Assembly (NCBI RefSeq): GCF_019264345.1
Contig: NZ_JAHVAO010000002.1
Location: forward strand, 62,001-126,000
Direction: 5' to 3'
Length of the DNA: 64,000 bases
Source: Marinobacter arenosus
Lineage (GTDB): Bacteria > Pseudomonadota > Gammaproteobacteria > Pseudomonadales > Oleiphilaceae
The position numbers were made by a program, and so were the translations under genes. Numbering within the stretch: position 1 is the first letter of the stretch; every line of letters begins with the position of its first letter. Shown here one piece after another: positions 45,755 to 53,848 of this stretch. The notes under the pieces are model-generated. The model saw only the letters and a program-made list of their open reading frames with translations, had not been told where the DNA came from and did not search any database.

Positions 45755-45784
45755 AAAAAAGGGCTGCAACCGAAGTTACAGCCC
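45755..45784 (-). terminator. terminator beyond the displaced tRNA-Met end (left flank)
   Basis: On the minus strand the arms GGGCTG (45761-45766) and CAGCCC (45779-45784), with an inner AAC/GTT stem, are followed by T6. It lies 9 bases past the left 45-bp repeat. It was probably the original terminator of tRNA-Met before insertion. Confidence 0.8.
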
Positions 45785-45793
45785 TTTGAATCT

Positions 45794-45838
45794 TGGTAGC
45801 AAGGGGCGGAGTCGAACCGCCGACCCCAGCATTATGAG
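45794..45838. repeat. attL: left 45-bp direct repeat, displaced 3' half of tRNA-Met
   Basis: Identical over 45 bases to 53772-53816. Read on the minus strand it runs from the start of the anticodon loop to the CCA end of tRNA-Met. It lacks the 5' half of the tRNA and is not a functional gene. Confidence 0.95.
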
Positions 45839-46264: not shown

Positions 46265-46744
46265 ATGGACACTAAAAGTATTCTTTTCGAAACACTGAAA
46301 TATACAGCCATAACTCCAATCTTGATGTTGGGAGGCTGTGCTTCCATAAATTTCGACTCAAACGATACTACCGGTTTAGTTTACTACGAACCTAAGCCTT
46401 ATCTTTTCTACTCTCAAACGACAAGCTGCGTGAGCTCAGTCACAGCGGTTACCTTACCCGGCAAGAAAAAGGTAATGAGTTTTGGGTGGGGGATCGGTTC
46501 CTCAGATTTATCCGCAAACTTTTCAAACGGAGTAATAACTGCTGTTGGTCAAACAAACGATTCAAAACTTTCCGAAACCTTAACGTCCATAGCCGCCGTT
46601 GCCGGGGTTATGACGGCCGAAGGCGAGGCCGAATGCCAGCCGGTATCTCTACTGTTTCCGATTGACGACAAAGGCCTCCTTAACTCGGAGAAACCTATCA
46701 ACTTACTCATTTGGGAGAAAAGGTTAGAAGATAAAACCGAGTGA
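46265..46744 (+). CDS. hypothetical lipoprotein
   Basis: A 159-residue protein with a signal peptide ending in the lipobox MLGGC (cysteine near residue 25). The mature part begins ASINFDSNDTTGLVYYEPKP, has no known domain and ends in a charged tail. AAGGA lies upstream of the ATG. Codon use is more AT-rich than in the host genes, in keeping with cargo of the element. It may be a surface-exclusion or envelope protein; this is a guess from class only. Confidence 0.65.
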   Translation: MDTKSILFETLKYTAITPILMLGGCASINFDSNDTTGLVYYEPKPYLFYSQTTSCVSSVTAVTLPGKKKVMSFGWGIGSSDLSANFSNGVITAVGQTNDSKLSETLTSIAAVAGVMTAEGEAECQPVSLLFPIDDKGLLNSEKPINLLIWEKRLEDKTE

Positions 46745-47023: not shown

Positions 47024-47254
47024 CTGGAATTTCGATTCACAAATAAAAAAGCTAACTGTTTAATTTTGTACGCAATTATTGTCCTTGGCGTTTTGCAGTC
47101 CCAACGGGTTATGACTAACTATAATTTTGGATGTTGATTTTTGATGGTGTGCTATCGACCGGACGCGCTCTAGCAGAGGTCTCTCGAGCGGAAGCGTTAG
47201 GCAACACCATTAGTGAAAACTCCATATGTTAAACGTGATCAAATAGGAAATACA

Positions 47255-48364
47255 ATGAGCGACGCCACGATTGACGAAATAAGAAATGGGATCATACTTC
47301 GAACTCAGTCAAGAACAGCATTATACCAATATGTAGATCCAGGGCTAGCCGATGAAATTGAGACGCTTTTTATTGGAGAGGTCGCAAACGCGATAGCAAC
47401 ATTATACGTTGGATACAAGCTAGGCGATGAGATCGAAGACGTAGGCTCCGCAATAGCTCGGACCATTGATGCGGTGGGAGATATTGCTAGGTCTATTGCA
47501 AAAGTAATAGATAAGTTGGCGGATATCATAGATGCAATAGATAAAGCAATAGAGGCTATCAGTCGACATATTGATTCGGCATTTATGAATCAACACATAA
47601 GCGATATGAAGTCGCGCAGCCTCTTGCTGCAAGACATAATTGTACGCCTTGACAGCTTGCCGCCTGAGAGTTCGGACCCGAGAGTGGCGCAGTTGCTCGC
47701 TCGGCTACAACTCAATACAGATGAATTATATACAGCAATTATTCGATACACGAACCAAGAGCCAATAGGACCGAGTCCTGCGACTTTTATAGGCTGCGCT
47801 CCTGCTATTGCTATGTGGGTACAGACTTATACTCTATTAGAACGGTATAAAAAAGCTGAAGACAGAGTTCCTCCTTGGGATTTAGCTTCTCAAAAAGAAA
47901 TATTTAGATTTGTAAACGATTTCTTTGACGATTATATAGCTGAAAATGCAAGAGTTAAGCTCGAGCTGGAAAATGATTATTTATTGCCAACGCTTGGAAC
48001 AGTTGTGGAGTTTAATGGCAGAAAGTTTGTTGCCTCTGATATATCGCGCCAAAGCTCGTATCCAGATAATGAGCGGTATTATTCTCTTTTCTCTAAAGAC
48101 TCGTTTAATTATTTTGATGTTTTCTCTACCAAATATCGCGGTTCCATTGGTGGAAATCCGATTCCTGATTTAACCTGGGGGCCATTAACAGAGAACAACT
48201 ACGATAAATTTCCTGAACCGCAGGTCGTATTGGAAGCACTAAGGTGGCAACAAGAAGCATTGCCTAAAGTGCAATTGAGAAATCGATTTTTGCATGAAAC
48301 AAATTCCTTTCATCTTCAAAAAGAAGAAGCTTTAAAAGCATTGAGTCCTCAAGATGATTGGTAA
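47255..48364 (+). CDS. unknown protein with long amphipathic helix, cargo of the element
   Basis: The ATG at 47255 follows GGAAA at good spacing and gives 369 residues; a GTG at 47213 would add 14. Residues about 40-110 form a long amphipathic or coiled-coil stretch with repeated I/V-D-x-I pattern (VGDIARSIAKVIDKLADIID). There is no signal peptide or enzyme motif. It converges with the ATPase gene with 150 bases between. The helical stretch could bind membranes or oligomerise; being next to a defence-like ATPase it might be an effector or a partner, but they are on opposite strands. I do not recognise the family. Confidence 0.7.
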   Translation: MSDATIDEIRNGIILRTQSRTALYQYVDPGLADEIETLFIGEVANAIATLYVGYKLGDEIEDVGSAIARTIDAVGDIARSIAKVIDKLADIIDAIDKAIEAISRHIDSAFMNQHISDMKSRSLLLQDIIVRLDSLPPESSDPRVAQLLARLQLNTDELYTAIIRYTNQEPIGPSPATFIGCAPAIAMWVQTYTLLERYKKAEDRVPPWDLASQKEIFRFVNDFFDDYIAENARVKLELENDYLLPTLGTVVEFNGRKFVASDISRQSSYPDNERYYSLFSKDSFNYFDVFSTKYRGSIGGNPIPDLTWGPLTENNYDKFPEPQVVLEALRWQQEALPKVQLRNRFLHETNSFHLQKEEALKALSPQDDW

Positions 48365-48514: not shown

Positions 48515-50689
48515 TTAAGCGGAAATCTTAGCTGTCATTATATCGTAATGGTCTTTATAGCCTTGAGTATAAAATACTAACCTAAGACCTTCCTTAAAGT
48601 CAGTATAATTGAATTCTTTGAAGTCAAATATGTTCTGGCCTAGAGAATGAGACTCGCGATTTATATATCTACAGAAGGCTTGAAATCTAGTACTTTGAAG
48701 TTCTGGCTTTTGAGTTATGACGCTTAAGTCAGACTTTTCTACGAAATTGAAGAAATACTCAATTATGTTTCGCATGCAGTTTGCTATTAGTGCTGGTGGT
48801 TGGTTTGGATCGTTTATTACTGACCAGTATGCATGATAATCATTCTGTATTTCTTCATATTTCATTTTTTTTATAGAGGTTCCTGTCGCGTTCTTGCTTA
48901 ACCGTAAAAGGTTTTGTTTTTTGTCGCGATTATCTTTCTTTGTCTCTGTTAAATCGTAGAAGAAATAAAGACTGTGTGTTAATACTATGACTTGCTCGTA
49001 TAGTTGTGAGTAGAAGAAGTCCCGCTTCAACATTTGCGCTACATTAAATACATATATGTGTGACAGGCTTGATACAGGGTCGTCAATTATTATTGATTTT
49101 TTTGTTGTTGTATCATTGGGCGATGCTTTTCCTTTGCATAGTTCGCAGAAATATAGAAAAGTTATTACTGTCTTTTCGCCTTCACTTAAACTTGTAAAGT
49201 CAGCGTCAGATTGATTGTCTCTTACTATTTTGTATAGCGTGTCGGAGTGTTTTACTATTTTGAAATCAGTTATCCCTAGCTGTTCAAGGTTTTGGTTTAT
49301 GTTGTTTATGGCGTCGTCAATATTGACGGTTTGACTTTGTGCTTTTGATAGATCTGAGTTGGTGGTTTGAATTTCGGATTTCTTTAAAAGGATTGATTGA
49401 TTTATTCCCTTAATTTTTGTGCTAATTTCCGATTCCTTCGATTTGTAGAATGAAATTGTTTGGTCATAGGTCCATCTCATCAAGTCCCAGAACTCATCCT
49501 TCAGTTTTCTAACTTCATCTTTTTTGTTGTCAATTTTTTTGTTGTGCTCTGATATTTCAGAGTTTATGTCAGATATTGAATGGTTTAAGTCTTCAATTGC
49601 CTCAGCAGTTGAGTTGAGCTCTACTCTTTGGCTTGGTGAGTTAATTTTTTCTTTTATTTTTTCTATGTTGGCCGTAAATATATCTACCGCATGATTGTAC
49701 TTTAAATATATCTCTTCAATATGTTTGTCTATGAAAGGGTTTTTTTCTATTTCTTCAAAGCTTTTGAGTGAGTTCAGGCTTTTCTCGTAGGAGGTAAGCT
49801 TCTGCCTCATGGAGTCTAAGGCTCCGTCGAACGACTCATCGAAGTAATCTTTGATATTTTCTAATAGGGGCTTTGTAATGGTTTTCTGCTGACAAAACGG
49901 ACAACTCTGATCATCCTCGGACTCCAAGTTCAAAAAGTCTAAACCCTTTCTTACCCAGTCGGAGTTATTTAGATGATCTATTAATTTTGAAACCGTACTA
50001 TCGTTGTTGCCTACTATGGCTTCTTTGAAGATTTCATCTTTTTCGATTTGGTAGTGGTTGAAGGAGAAGGGGGGCAGAGTTTGATATTTTTTAGCTGAAC
50101 TATCACTAAGGGTTTGGAAATCGTGTCTTATTTTTTCAATGCTTTTCGTCGGTTTTTCTGACGGCATTACCTTTTCTGATAGATAATTAAATAGAGTTTC
50201 TTTGTTTCCTTTTTTGCCTTCGAGAAAGCTGTCTAGTGTTCGATTTTTTGTCGAATTTTCTTGCTTTATCTCCCAGGTCTTATCGCTCGCTTTAGATTTC
50301 TCGTTATCCAGCGATTGGCGTTCAGTTTGTAAATTAGATTCTAGTTGGCGTAACTGATCTGTTTTTTCGTTGAGGTCTTTAGTGAGATTCTCGATCTTAG
50401 TTTCAGCTTCTTTGTTTTCTTTTGATAGGCTGAAAACGCCGCTTATTTTTTCTGCTTCATAAAAATTGTCATTTATGAAGTTTTGGTTATAGACGAGTTT
50501 TTTTGTTTCTGGAGCTATGGATAATTTGCAATGTCGGTATACGGGGGAATGGGGTGAGTATAAAAAATTTGAGATTGTGCTTTTTCCAGTTCCGTTCAGC
50601 CCATATATAAGAGTAACTTGTTTATTGGTGTCAATAACCGTAGCTTGCTTGTAACTGGCGACACGGTCCATCGTGATGTTGGTTATCAT
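48515..50689 (-). CDS. PrrC/RloC-like AAA_13 ATPase, candidate anticodon nuclease
   Basis: The start at ATG 50689 (MITNITMDRVASYKQATVID) fits this family and gives 724 residues; a TTG at 50779 would add 30. Order: Walker A GLNGTGKST (30-38); coiled coil; CPFC zinc-hook-like motif (263-266); second coiled coil; ABC signature LSEGE (501-505); Walker B SIIIDDPVSSLS (532-543); histidine switch THSL. The C-terminal part has R640-x3-E644 and H681, similar to the R-x3-E...H nuclease triad of PrrC and RloC; R674-x6-H681 also fits the HEPN pattern. RloC proteins cut tRNA anticodon loops after phage-induced damage. Here this is predicted, not shown. The gene is AT-rich and has no linked restriction genes, unlike prrC. 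A non-nuclease AAA_13 ATPase is the main alternative. Confidence 0.8.
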   Translation of the reverse strand: MITNITMDRVASYKQATVIDTNKQVTLIYGLNGTGKSTISNFLYSPHSPVYRHCKLSIAPETKKLVYNQNFINDNFYEAEKISGVFSLSKENKEAETKIENLTKDLNEKTDQLRQLESNLQTERQSLDNEKSKASDKTWEIKQENSTKNRTLDSFLEGKKGNKETLFNYLSEKVMPSEKPTKSIEKIRHDFQTLSDSSAKKYQTLPPFSFNHYQIEKDEIFKEAIVGNNDSTVSKLIDHLNNSDWVRKGLDFLNLESEDDQSCPFCQQKTITKPLLENIKDYFDESFDGALDSMRQKLTSYEKSLNSLKSFEEIEKNPFIDKHIEEIYLKYNHAVDIFTANIEKIKEKINSPSQRVELNSTAEAIEDLNHSISDINSEISEHNKKIDNKKDEVRKLKDEFWDLMRWTYDQTISFYKSKESEISTKIKGINQSILLKKSEIQTTNSDLSKAQSQTVNIDDAINNINQNLEQLGITDFKIVKHSDTLYKIVRDNQSDADFTSLSEGEKTVITFLYFCELCKGKASPNDTTTKKSIIIDDPVSSLSHIYVFNVAQMLKRDFFYSQLYEQVIVLTHSLYFFYDLTETKKDNRDKKQNLLRLSKNATGTSIKKMKYEEIQNDYHAYWSVINDPNQPPALIANCMRNIIEYFFNFVEKSDLSVITQKPELQSTRFQAFCRYINRESHSLGQNIFDFKEFNYTDFKEGLRLVFYTQGYKDHYDIMTAKISA

Positions 50690-50860
50690 GCTTAGGAGCT
50701 CCGAATTATCGTTTTTCAAATGATGATTGATTTTTGTATTGCTGTATTTTTTAAAATTTTTAGCTTTGATCTTCAGCAAGAGCTAGCGTGAATATCACTG
50801 TAACACGTCTGATAGATACCGAGTAATCGGTTCAATAATGGACAGAAAGGAACACTTCAC

Positions 50861-52122
50861 ATGATTCACGATTTTGAACGCTTTAAAGTCCAGACTTGGG
50901 AAATCGGTAAAGGAGATCTGTTCATTGGTCCCGATGGTCATCAGATCGATTTAAGCCGAGTAAACGTTCTCTGGACCGGTGTGGATACCGTTCGGCAATT
51001 GTTTGAGGGTCGACTAAAGCCGGAAGTCCTGGCTGAAATAACCACCGCCTACGAAGAAAGCTTTGAAGCGTCGTTCGAGATTCGAAACGTCTTGTTCCGT
51101 GTCCAGTCAGGTCGTAGCGGGGGGTTAAGTACATCCTCCAGAACCGCGAGTACGGTCTGACCAATCTGGTTCAGAGCTTCTACGCCGAAGCCGACACTTA
51201 GGGAACCCACGTCAAAATCGAAACGTCCCCGCGCTGGCTCTATGAACGCTCCAGTCAGCAAGTCCACGACGAATTGGCCGAGTGGGGAATGCATTTCCTG
51301 AAGGCGATTAACCCCGTCGGCACTGCGTTGCATCTGGCGGTGGATTTTTAGGGGTGGGGACCACCGGAAGACTTTGCGCAACACTTTGTGACCAGGGCAA
51401 AGACGGTCACCGTCCACAGCGGAATGAGAGACTTCCACTTTCAGGGCTTACAAGGGACCACTATCAATGGTCGCGGTGAAACCTACACCTTTGGCAAGGC
51501 TAACAGGTTGCAGGTGTGTCTGTACGACAAGTCAAAGGAGATCGACGTGAGCGACAAGCGCGCATTCATGGAGGGCATCTGGGAAAGCGCAGTCAATGAA
51601 GACGCCTTCCCGGATACCTGCTACGACTCGGACAAGTCGGTCTGGCGGTTGGAAATCCGCTTTCATCACAGAATCGTCAACGAGATCTCCCAGGGCACAC
51701 CCAACATGAAGCCCATTTATACCTTCATGGATGCCGTACCGCATCTAACTGGTTTGTGGAAATACGCTCTTCAGGGCAACCGCTACGAGGCTAAGAGGGA
51801 CTGGGTACACCCCATCTGGACGAAACTTCGGGATGACATCGGCTTCGGGTATTCGGCCCCTGATCTGCTCTACAAACGCGTAAAAAAGGAGCCTGGTTGC
51901 GGCAACGAGAAGAACGTCTCCCTCGCCTTCGGCAATCTCCTGAGCATTTATGCCCGCAACCGTTTTAACACCCGTCAGGCTTGGGATTGCCTCAAGAAAA
52001 GCGGCCTCTGGGAAGACTTGTGCAGCTACTATCGGCGTCGGGAGATCTATGAGAACGAACTGTTCCCGCTTGTTCAGGACGGGCTCATCAAACGACGACT
52101 GCTGACTAAGGTGGCCGCGTGA
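50861..52122 (+). pseudogene. broken replication initiator (phage gene II/X, Rep_trans-like)
   Basis: The ATG at 50861 has AAAGGAA upstream. The first 87 or so codons read normally. At a G6 run (51121-51126 region) the reading must shift by -1 to continue as VKYILQNREYGLTNLVQSFY. In that frame there are TAG stops at 51199 and 51349, both where tyrosine would fit (ADT-stop-GTH and VDF-stop-GWG). From 51352 on, the frame is open to 52122, with RLQVCLYDKSKEI and SVWRLEIRFHH, a pattern of replication initiation factors of phages and plasmids. Its end overlaps the integrase start (GTGA). Three lesions within about 230 bases indicate inactivation, sequencing error or, less likely, recoding. Confidence 0.8.
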
Positions 52123-53132
52123 TTTCAAAAAACGAACATGGCTGGAAGGTGGACTTCTATCCGGAGGGTAGGGAAGGTCCGAGAGTACGCAAACAGGGCT
52201 TCAAAACCCGATTGGATGCACTTCAGTTTGTTCGTGACTATGGGCGTAAAAATCGGGTCCCATCGGAACGACTCAAAGATCTGGTTAAGAAGTGGTACGA
52301 CTATCACGGCCATATGCTGAAGGACGCGAAGTACCGTCTGTCGAGGACAAACGCTATCTGCGATCGGCTTGGGAACCCCGGAGTAAAGGATTTCACCGCG
52401 ACTGACTGGATGGAATACCGTGCCCTACGAATGCAGGAAGTTACGCCAAGAACCTGTAACCACGAGCAGCGATACCTTTCGGCTGTGTTTGCTGAGATGG
52501 TGAGAATCGGGCACCTCAAAGCTAACCCGATCGGGCCGGTTCGTCAGGTGAGGGTCAAAGAACGGGAAATGTCCTTTCTTACTATCGACCAGTGCAACCA
52601 GCTCCTGGAGGAATGCAGGCAAAGCTCGAATGAGTTTGTCTGGTCTGTAGCAATGATCTGTCTGGCGACGGGCGCAAGGTGGATAGAGGCGGAAACTCTG
52701 ACGAACTCCGGGTTTCTCTCAGGGAAAGTCATCTTTCGGGATACGAAAAACGGAAAGAGCGGGGCGGTTCCGATTGATCCGAAGATCCAGGAGCAAATTC
52801 TTGAAAATGCCTTGCCGGGTCCAGGACGTTTATTTGGTCCATGCCGATCAGCGTTTCGCGCTGCCTACAAGCGATGTGGATACTCAACACCGCAACAGTT
52901 CACTGACATCCTCCGGCATACCTTCGCTAGCCACTACTTGATGAACGGAGGGGACATTCTTACGCTCCAGAGGATTCTAGGGCATGGCAACATTGCTATG
53001 ACTATGAAGTACGTGCATTTGTCTCCTGATCACCTAGAGTCTGCGGTCAGGTTGTCTCCTATTTCCCGTGTAGTCATGACGGAAGGCTCGGTGGGTATCA
53101 ATGATTTAAAGCGCGAGCCTGGACAGAGGTAG
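52119..53132 (+). CDS. int: tyrosine recombinase (integrase) of the element
   Basis: A 337-residue phage integrase that should drive insertion at tRNA-Met. Catalytic residues: R187 in TGARWIEAE, K213 in TKNGKSGAV, R266 and following in ILRHTFASHYLMNGG, H289 in ILGHGN, and nucleophile Y298 in MTMKYVHL. At the first histidine of the usual HxxR box there is D263 (TDILRHT), an uncommon change. Length and the HTFASHYLMNGG style resemble integrases of Pf-like phages. GTG start overlaps the replication gene. Probably functional, but the histidine change leaves a question. Confidence 0.93.
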   Translation: MISKNEHGWKVDFYPEGREGPRVRKQGFKTRLDALQFVRDYGRKNRVPSERLKDLVKKWYDYHGHMLKDAKYRLSRTNAICDRLGNPGVKDFTATDWMEYRALRMQEVTPRTCNHEQRYLSAVFAEMVRIGHLKANPIGPVRQVRVKEREMSFLTIDQCNQLLEECRQSSNEFVWSVAMICLATGARWIEAETLTNSGFLSGKVIFRDTKNGKSGAVPIDPKIQEQILENALPGPGRLFGPCRSAFRAAYKRCGYSTPQQFTDILRHTFASHYLMNGGDILTLQRILGHGNIAMTMKYVHLSPDHLESAVRLSPISRVVMTEGSVGINDLKREPGQR

Positions 53133-53543
53133 GGCTATTCCTAGGCAGCTTGCGATCCAGTAGAAGAAAAAAATGATGGACGCAATCGTGAACGTGGTTG
53201 CCGCTCTCCAGATTAGGTTTCTTAAACCTTGACCATTCTCGATTTTTTTTAGCTGCTCGTGCTGATCGTTGTGAACTGCGATTAATTGTTTGTAGGTGTT
53301 TGCTGCAGCTAATAGCTCGTTATAGTTCCCTCTAGATAGAATCTGTCTTACTTCATGCTTAGCTTGCTCTTTTGTCATTCCTTTGTTGCCATGCTTTAGA
53401 TCAAAGGTTCTATTTATGGCTTCGTCGATATTTTTTTGGATAGAGCTTTTGAAGTCTGAATCGGGACCGAATCCTGGAGGCCACTTTACTTTGTCCCGCT
53501 CGCCATCAACTCGATCAAGAACATCCCTGCTGCTAGCTTTCAT
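53106..53543 (-). CDS. small membrane-anchored hypothetical protein
   Basis: A 145-residue protein with a soluble, charged N-terminal part (DKVKWPPGFGPDSDFKSSIQ; KGMTKEQAKHEVRQILSRG) and one C-terminal hydrophobic helix (FTIASIIFFFYWIASCLGIA). It runs opposite to the integrase and overlaps its last 27 bases. It has its own ATG at 53543 just inside the right end of the element. Tail-anchored small proteins in such islands are sometimes effectors or immunity proteins; here there is no direct evidence. Not recognised. Confidence 0.65.
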   Translation of the reverse strand: MKASSRDVLDRVDGERDKVKWPPGFGPDSDFKSSIQKNIDEAINRTFDLKHGNKGMTKEQAKHEVRQILSRGNYNELLAAANTYKQLIAVHNDQHEQLKKIENGQGLRNLIWRAATTFTIASIIFFFYWIASCLGIALPLSRLAL

Positions 53544-53732: not shown

Positions 53733-53762
53733 AAAAAAGGGTTACAGCGTGAACTGTAACCC
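53733..53762 (-). terminator. tRNA-Met terminator supplied by the element
   Basis: Perfect 9-bp arms GGGTTACAG (53739-53747) and CTGTAACCC (53754-53762), read on the minus strand, are followed by T6. It lies just past the CCA end of tRNA-Met, mirroring the hairpin on the left flank but with a different sequence. Confidence 0.88.
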
Positions 53763-53771
53763 TTTGGAATC

Positions 53772-53816
53772 TGGTAGCAAGGGGCGGAGTCGAACCGCCG
53801 ACCCCAGCATTATGAG
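53772..53816. repeat. attR: right 45-bp direct repeat within tRNA-Met
   Basis: Identical to 45794-45838. It forms the 3' half of the intact tRNA-Met, so insertion restored the gene. The repeat ends at the 5' side of the anticodon loop, placing the likely strand exchange at or near the anticodon. Confidence 0.95.
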
Positions 53817-53848
53817 TGCTGTGCTCTAACCAACTGAGCTACCTTGCC
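53772..53848 (-). tRNA. tRNA-Met (CAT), elongator type, integration target
   Basis: 77 nt with encoded CCA. The acceptor stem GGCAAGG pairs with CCTTGCT (first pair G-U), the anticodon loop is CTCATAA, and the T arm has GGTTCGACTCC. The first pair is a wobble rather than the unpaired C-A of initiator tRNA, and the anticodon stem lacks the three G-C pairs of initiators, so it is an elongator. The 3' half comes from the element. Confidence 0.95.

Follow-up and report, generated by a model that had tools for sequence, protein, structure and literature searches.

The gene at positions 48515 to 50689 of the window (the whole 64,000-nucleotide stretch of Marinobacter arenosus DNA analysed here) most likely encodes a member of the RloC family, with a DNA-end-triggered, tRNA-cutting role proposed by analogy. 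Judged from the sequence, it is probably an ordinary RloC, still working, lodged in a crippled Pf-like prophage. The RloC identification made in the initial annotation stands; the accompanying claim of portability fails unless a helper moves the element. The gene is as follows:

48515..50689, minus strand: rloC-type gene, intact open reading frame of 724 aa (ATG at 50689, stop at 48515)

An alternative frame of 754 aa begins with a TTG codon at 50779. The best PADLOC profile match starts at residue 31 of this longer frame and the N-terminus of the homologue consensus, MITxIxM, coincides with the ATG of the 724-aa frame; position 50689 is therefore the likely start, and initiation at TTG 50779 is unlikely. 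The GC content amounts to 36-38% in the gene, 42-54% in the rest of the element and approximately 60% in the flanks, in agreement with the initial description of the gene as AT-rich. The motifs of the 724-aa protein are located as follows:

50579..50602, minus strand: Walker A, GLNGTGKS, residues 30-37
49892..49903, minus strand: CPFC at residues 263-266, mid-insert, putative zinc hook
48758..48772, minus strand: R640-x3-E644, first and second residues of the ACNase triad
48647..48670, minus strand: R674-x6-H681, containing the last residue of the triad and matching the Rx4-6H motif of HEPN

With the additional motifs LSEG at 501 and IIIDDP at 533, the ABC ATPase set is complete (Walker A, signature, Walker B and the switch His, H572), and the ATPase is split between Walker A (30) and the signature (501) by the CPFC-bearing insert. 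The C-terminal spacing is R640-x3-E644-x36-H681, with S680 preceding the His. The split ATPase, the CPFC motif and the R640/E644/H681 arrangement announced in the initial annotation were thus all found at the residue numbers given there. A second CxxC motif, CELC at 515-518, adjoins the ABC signature and is distinct from the hook. Profiles of the SMC/Rad50 type match inside residues 117-542 of the 754-aa frame, under their own cut-offs; a Rad50/SbcC/SMC identity was rejected, since the likeness is confined to coiled coil and P-loop and lies far below the curated cut-offs. In a survey of the superfamily, the nucleases of RloC and PrrC are classed as HEPN and described with an Rx4-6H motif (PMC3710099); the triad is therefore best read together with R674, given that R674-x6-H681 fits this motif.

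As defined by Davidov and Kaufmann in 2008, RloC displays ABC motifs, a coiled-coil insert with CX2C and the nuclease signature R-X3-E-X36-52-H, spans 658-897 aa and often carries a Ser before the triad His (PMC2610378). Each of these features is present in the window protein, including the length of 724 aa. The equivalent residues of the Geobacillus kaustophilus protein (R692, E696 and H737) are each needed for ACNase activity, which is restrained by the hook cysteines (PMC2610378). Among family profiles, the PADLOC model of PDC-S06 (PDLC04886) is matched over positions 1-723 of 727 (E=1.1e-249), Pfam AAA_13 with E=2.1e-113 and PHROG 2801, of unknown function, with E=8e-118. The PADLOC PrrC HMM matches residues 459-683 of the 724-aa protein, or 489-713 of the 754-aa frame (E=2.9e-13). 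Among the 120 homologues listed in the protein search, some close matches bear the JGI name 'wobble nucleotide-excising tRNase'. Two PDC-S06 were counted by PADLOC in Pseudomonas aeruginosa PA14 (PMC11878078) and two RloCs in the same strain (PMC2610378); PDC-S06 and RloC therefore very probably overlap.

Three PrrC genes were taken from hsd loci of the same order. Two of them are situated directly behind hsdM-hsdS and before hsdR, and the third is a longer frame at the same hsd position. In all three proteins, the positions of R640, E644, R674 and H681 are occupied by R, E, R and H, respectively.

Searches of solved structures yielded little. The whole protein sequence gave two matches (E 0.028 and 0.27), both to unrelated helical proteins, a 45-row profile gave no match up to E 0.01, and the C-terminal 146 residues gave one match (E 0.023) to a dGTPase-like protein lacking the triad. 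These weak matches were taken as chance. The same 146 residues matched no HEPN family in Pfam, the hits being AAA_13 itself (E=5e-14) and, weakly and below its cut-off, DUF4441 (0.028). A match between one PrrC and the antiviral protein Ec1Ap (9hxn), with E 0.033 over the nuclease region, lacks the triad Arg and any single significant stretch, and was likewise attributed to chance; a literature search for Ec1Ap returned nothing relevant.

Conservation was evaluated on two sets of relatives. Out of 7999 candidates scored in a search of 5.8 billion proteins, 874 matched with E<=0.001, and 120 homologues were listed, one of which is the window's own protein. Of the other 119, 44 were aligned with it; they are 47-53% identical to the window protein, and R640, E644, H681, R674, C263 and C266 are invariant in all 45 rows. 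Scanning named genomes led to 124 confirmed places; the best 80 of these were kept and span Pseudomonadota, Bacteroidota, Bacillota and other phyla. In these best 80, R640, E644, R674, S502, G504, D536, D537 and H572 are each kept without exception. H681 is kept in 79 (L152 has Pro), as are C263 and C266 (L120 is gapped in a short frame), and Walker A K36 is kept in 77, the three others being short frames gapped at this position. The E-x36-H spacing is observed in 78 of the 80 scored rows, with 37 and 38 occurring once each. The window protein itself agrees with 127 of the 131 columns that are at least 97% identical among the best 80 loci, and differs in 4.

A remoter set comprises 19 rows of 20-49% identity, corresponding to 17 distinct genes (L002 and L156 are the same, as are L021 and L157), and row L002 also equals L077 of the best 80. 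At such a distance the alignment is uncertain; R640 and both cysteines are found in 19/19 rows, E644 and H681 in 16/19 each and R674 in 9/19, which makes R674 the least general residue. A quick tree with PrrC as root was drawn from 93 rows, after omission of 10 of the 103 rows (3 truncated frames, 2 duplicates and the 5 remotest). In this tree the window protein groups with copies from Salinicola and Arsukibacterium (support 93), within a 30-row set (support 96); its exact place is unsure because its branch is long (0.63).

The proposal of an RloC-type anticodon nuclease candidate is upheld by the order of the domains, by the spacing and conservation of the motifs and by the homology to PrrC. 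That the protein might instead be a member of AAA_13 with the same fold, acting on another RNA or as a non-tRNA toxin, appears improbable. AAA_13 is a broad family, the two RloCs characterised in the papers cited are 33% identical to each other (PMC3874168) and the choice of substrate differs even between RloC and PrrC (PMC2610378); against this, triad, hook and spacing are all kept and the PrrC profile match spans the nuclease region.

The function proposed for RloC can be briefly summarized by analogy with the proteins of G. kaustophilus and Acinetobacter baylyi. DNA ends would be sensed by the Rad50-like ABC head together with the zinc-hook coiled coil, and the same two parts would hold the HEPN-type nuclease at the C-terminus in check. 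Binding of broken DNA and hydrolysis of ATP would release the nuclease, and the freed enzyme would cut certain tRNAs at the wobble position (tRNA-Glu and tRNA-Gln in A. baylyi), so that translation would stop. The benefit would probably be the containment of phages or of other genotoxic stress. From this analogy, we infer that the window protein acts as a nuclease on tRNA, is triggered by DNA ends and counteracts phages.

The initial annotation had also stressed that the gene stands without a restriction system. The six or seven element proteins scanned include no restriction gene, and the host genome (99.97% complete) shows no match to HSDR_N or N6_Mtase, two Pfam models that were positive in 9/14 and 13/14 of the control genomes; the observation is therefore confirmed for the element and, as regards type I systems, for the whole genome by these two models. 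Linkage to type I restriction genes, as judged by HsdM similarity, was detected in at least 6 of the best 80 loci, a lower bound given that 16 of the 80 loci are shorter than 12 kb and that the queries consisted of HsdM and one type IC HsdR. Three relatives, 46-48% identical (L083, L093 and L116), lie directly behind hsdM-hsdS, which is the original 'restriction-linked orf' setting. The six hsdM-linked loci require at least four changes on the tree; restriction linkage thus comes and goes. In 2008, 8 of 73 RloCs were restriction-linked (PMC2610378). An RloC standing without a restriction system is normal rather than special. In A. baylyi, an inducer of DNA breaks activated RloC also in R-M deficient mutants (PMC3874168), in agreement with RloC working without a restriction partner. 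The window protein is one more well-conserved RloC in a genome devoid of type I genes according to the two Pfam models, a situation that fits an RloC carrying its own switch.

The gene family is patchily distributed and recurs on mobile DNA. Matches were obtained in 15 of 145 genomes, own included, and the only other one above 28% identity is in G093 (49%). Among plasmids, 270 of 72,556 records match, and in 97 of these the match covers at least 80% of the query; among phages, 9 of 50,697 records match. As an example from tailed prophages, RloC is annotated in Streptococcus phage Javan105, and three more Javan records match with the same identity. The Javan105 copy (L031, 3001-4947) aligns only up to residue 647 of the query; the alignment places Asp at both E644 and H681, and this RloC may be inactive or misaligned at the triad. 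Four viral contigs carry an rloC relative, and the one inspected (L158) is read as a tailed phage because it encodes a long tail-fibre-like protein. Previously, 10 of 73 RloCs were located in possible transposons (PMC2610378), and an RloC was listed in a Shewanella genomic island beside a type I system (PMC12016545).

This distribution bears on a somewhat unlikely alternative, in which the protein would mainly respond to DNA breaks for stress survival and host fitness instead of phage defence, a reading that involves the same biochemistry and is compatible with the best explanation. The RloC of A. baylyi does answer a DNA-break inducer with partial tRNA cleavage (PMC3874168), the phage effect of the RloC listed in Streptococcus thermophilus is given as 'not tested' (PMC12322248), and a Pseudomonas survey assigns no known function to RloC and finds it correlated with susceptibility to phages rather than with resistance (PMC12447246). 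The patchy occurrence and the carriage on prophage-derived DNA, plasmids and phages speak against it, as does the fact that no survival benefit was seen in A. baylyi (PMC3874168). In the same 2013 study, A. baylyi lacking RloC was no more sensitive to nalidixic acid; this result and the link with susceptibility in Pseudomonas also weigh against the preferred explanation. The accessible text of the open-licence literature yielded no demonstration of RloC anti-phage activity. The window protein bears on the question of phage protection by RloC, as any other member would.

The element carrying the gene is integrated at a tRNA-Met gene; the following features accompany rloC:

53772..53848, minus strand: tRNA-Met (CAT), integration site
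53772..53816: 45-bp att repeat inside tRNA-Met
45794..45838: exact 45-bp copy of the att repeat, at the element's far end
52119..53132, plus strand: tyrosine integrase, intact frame
50861..52122, plus strand: remnant of an inovirus Rep gene
53106..53543, minus strand: 145-aa protein between integrase and att, no family match
47213..48364, plus strand: 383-aa orphan cargo protein, convergent with rloC, no family match
46265..46744, plus strand: 159-aa protein, lipoprotein-like start (as read), no clear family match

The 45-bp att corresponds to the 3' portion of tRNA-Met(CAT) as far as the anticodon loop, and the exact repeats ending there bear out the crossover in the anticodon loop that had been noted initially. 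Integrases of this kind usually recombine within tRNA genes; the site is uninformative about tRNA cutting. Terminator-like hairpins adjoin both att cores, at 45755-45793 and 53733-53771, after the tRNA end. The two copies differ and each looks able to self-pair, as if the phage brought its own terminator for the rebuilt tRNA.

The integrase is 52-55% identical to those of nine Pf-type phage records, four of which (PfAC01, PfAC02a, PfAC11 and PfAC20) are Pf phages in tRNA-Met (PMC11878078), and the view of the carrier as a Pf-like, tRNA-targeting element is sustained on this ground. A frameshift near 51121-51130 and two in-frame stops, at 51199 and 51349, interrupt the Rep remnant. Its C-terminal part has relatives in 27 of 100 genomes from the genus, own included, with 74-91% identity where the frame is open throughout. 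Under the name of Synechococcus phage, two records (PP438433.1 and OM868077.1) encode a Rep 87% identical to that of the window; our guess is that the hosts of these phages may have been other bacteria accompanying the cultures. In another species of the genus (L068, G076:C61), a Pf-like prophage occupies the same tRNA-Met next to the same genes, with complete Rep and integrase frames and a Zot relative at the contig end.

Five structural protein queries from locus L045 gave no match in the whole window at E<=1e-3, a result to be read with the knowledge that divergent structural genes can be missed, as the Zot query finds a relative in 29 of the 41 loci searched. Other frames occupy the stretch from att to Rep. 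The gene complement of a functional Pf-like inovirus (intact Rep, ssDNA-binding protein, coat, pIII, pVI and Zot module) was not found; the element does combine a related integrase and Rep with att repeats in a tRNA, as expected of a Pf-like inovirus derivative. Besides the att and tRNA ends, DNA similarity to relatives extends from 50795 to approximately 53065. Since similarity begins at 50795, the region from the far att to this position, rloC included, is foreign DNA with respect to the phage backbone. For the 383-aa neighbour, a word-based search found three related proteins (57, 46 and 31% identical) in addition to its own entry, and no relative was found in viral contigs; the idea that it is a general partner of rloC was rejected on account of these few relatives and of the convergent orientation.

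The initial annotation had presented the gene as a 'portable abortive-infection module'. The integrase frame and the att repeats are indeed intact; portability is unsupported for the element as it stands, because Rep is broken and structural genes remain undetected. The same observations could suggest that rloC is a decayed, functionless gene carried along in a dead prophage. This appears highly improbable in view of the intact rloC frame and of the agreement with near-invariant columns noted above.

A second Pf-like prophage is present in the same genome (L067, G000:C1:1795715-1796446). Its 421-aa Rep frame shows 89% identity over the C-terminal part and is accompanied by weak pIII and Zot relatives; the prophage is a possible helper. 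One could envisage that the element is a living satellite in which coat and assembly genes have been swapped for rloC and the orphan gene, and which is replicated and packaged in trans by the co-resident Pf-like inovirus. We consider this very doubtful; if true, a self-contained tRNA nuclease triggered by DNA breaks would be spreading inside filamentous particles. The preferred explanation is a probably working RloC in a prophage remnant.

Comparison with known systems places the window protein among the RloCs exemplified by those of G. kaustophilus and A. baylyi ADP1 and by the Campylobacter restriction-linked orf. It shares with them the split ABC head with its CX2C insert, the R-X3-E-X36-52-(S)H arrangement and the size; these proteins are also usually unlinked to restriction genes and at times reside on mobile DNA. 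It differs in its carrier, a Pf-like prophage remnant, and the likeness to the characterised RloCs rests on the published motif definition. PDC-S06 is a candidate phage-defence class as opposed to a proven system, and would be equivalent to RloC, judging from PA14. PrrC shares the ABC motifs and the aligned R, E, R and H of the nuclease domain, whereas it lacks the zinc-hook insert, measures 341-416 aa, about half the size, and belongs to type Ic hsd operons; membership in PrrC was rejected for the window protein, which has the insert, 724 aa and a genome in which the two Pfam models found no type I genes. Defence genes on filamentous prophages are already known from the Pseudomonas Pf phages (PMC11878078) and from marine Vibrio (PMC11630473). 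The Vibrio prophages are likewise small and carry accessory defence genes at a variable locus; RloC is absent from the main text of that report. PfAC01, PfAC02a, PfAC11 and PfAC20 are alike in their integrase (52.5-53.3% identical), in the type of integration site and in carrying defence genes, and unlike in the systems listed for them, namely retron, ShosTA, Kiwa, Avs, PfsE and a methyltransferase, with RloC not among them (PMC11878078). The remnant of a small filamentous prophage is a commonplace setting for rloC, and RloC joins the cargo seen in Pf-like prophages of tRNA-Met.
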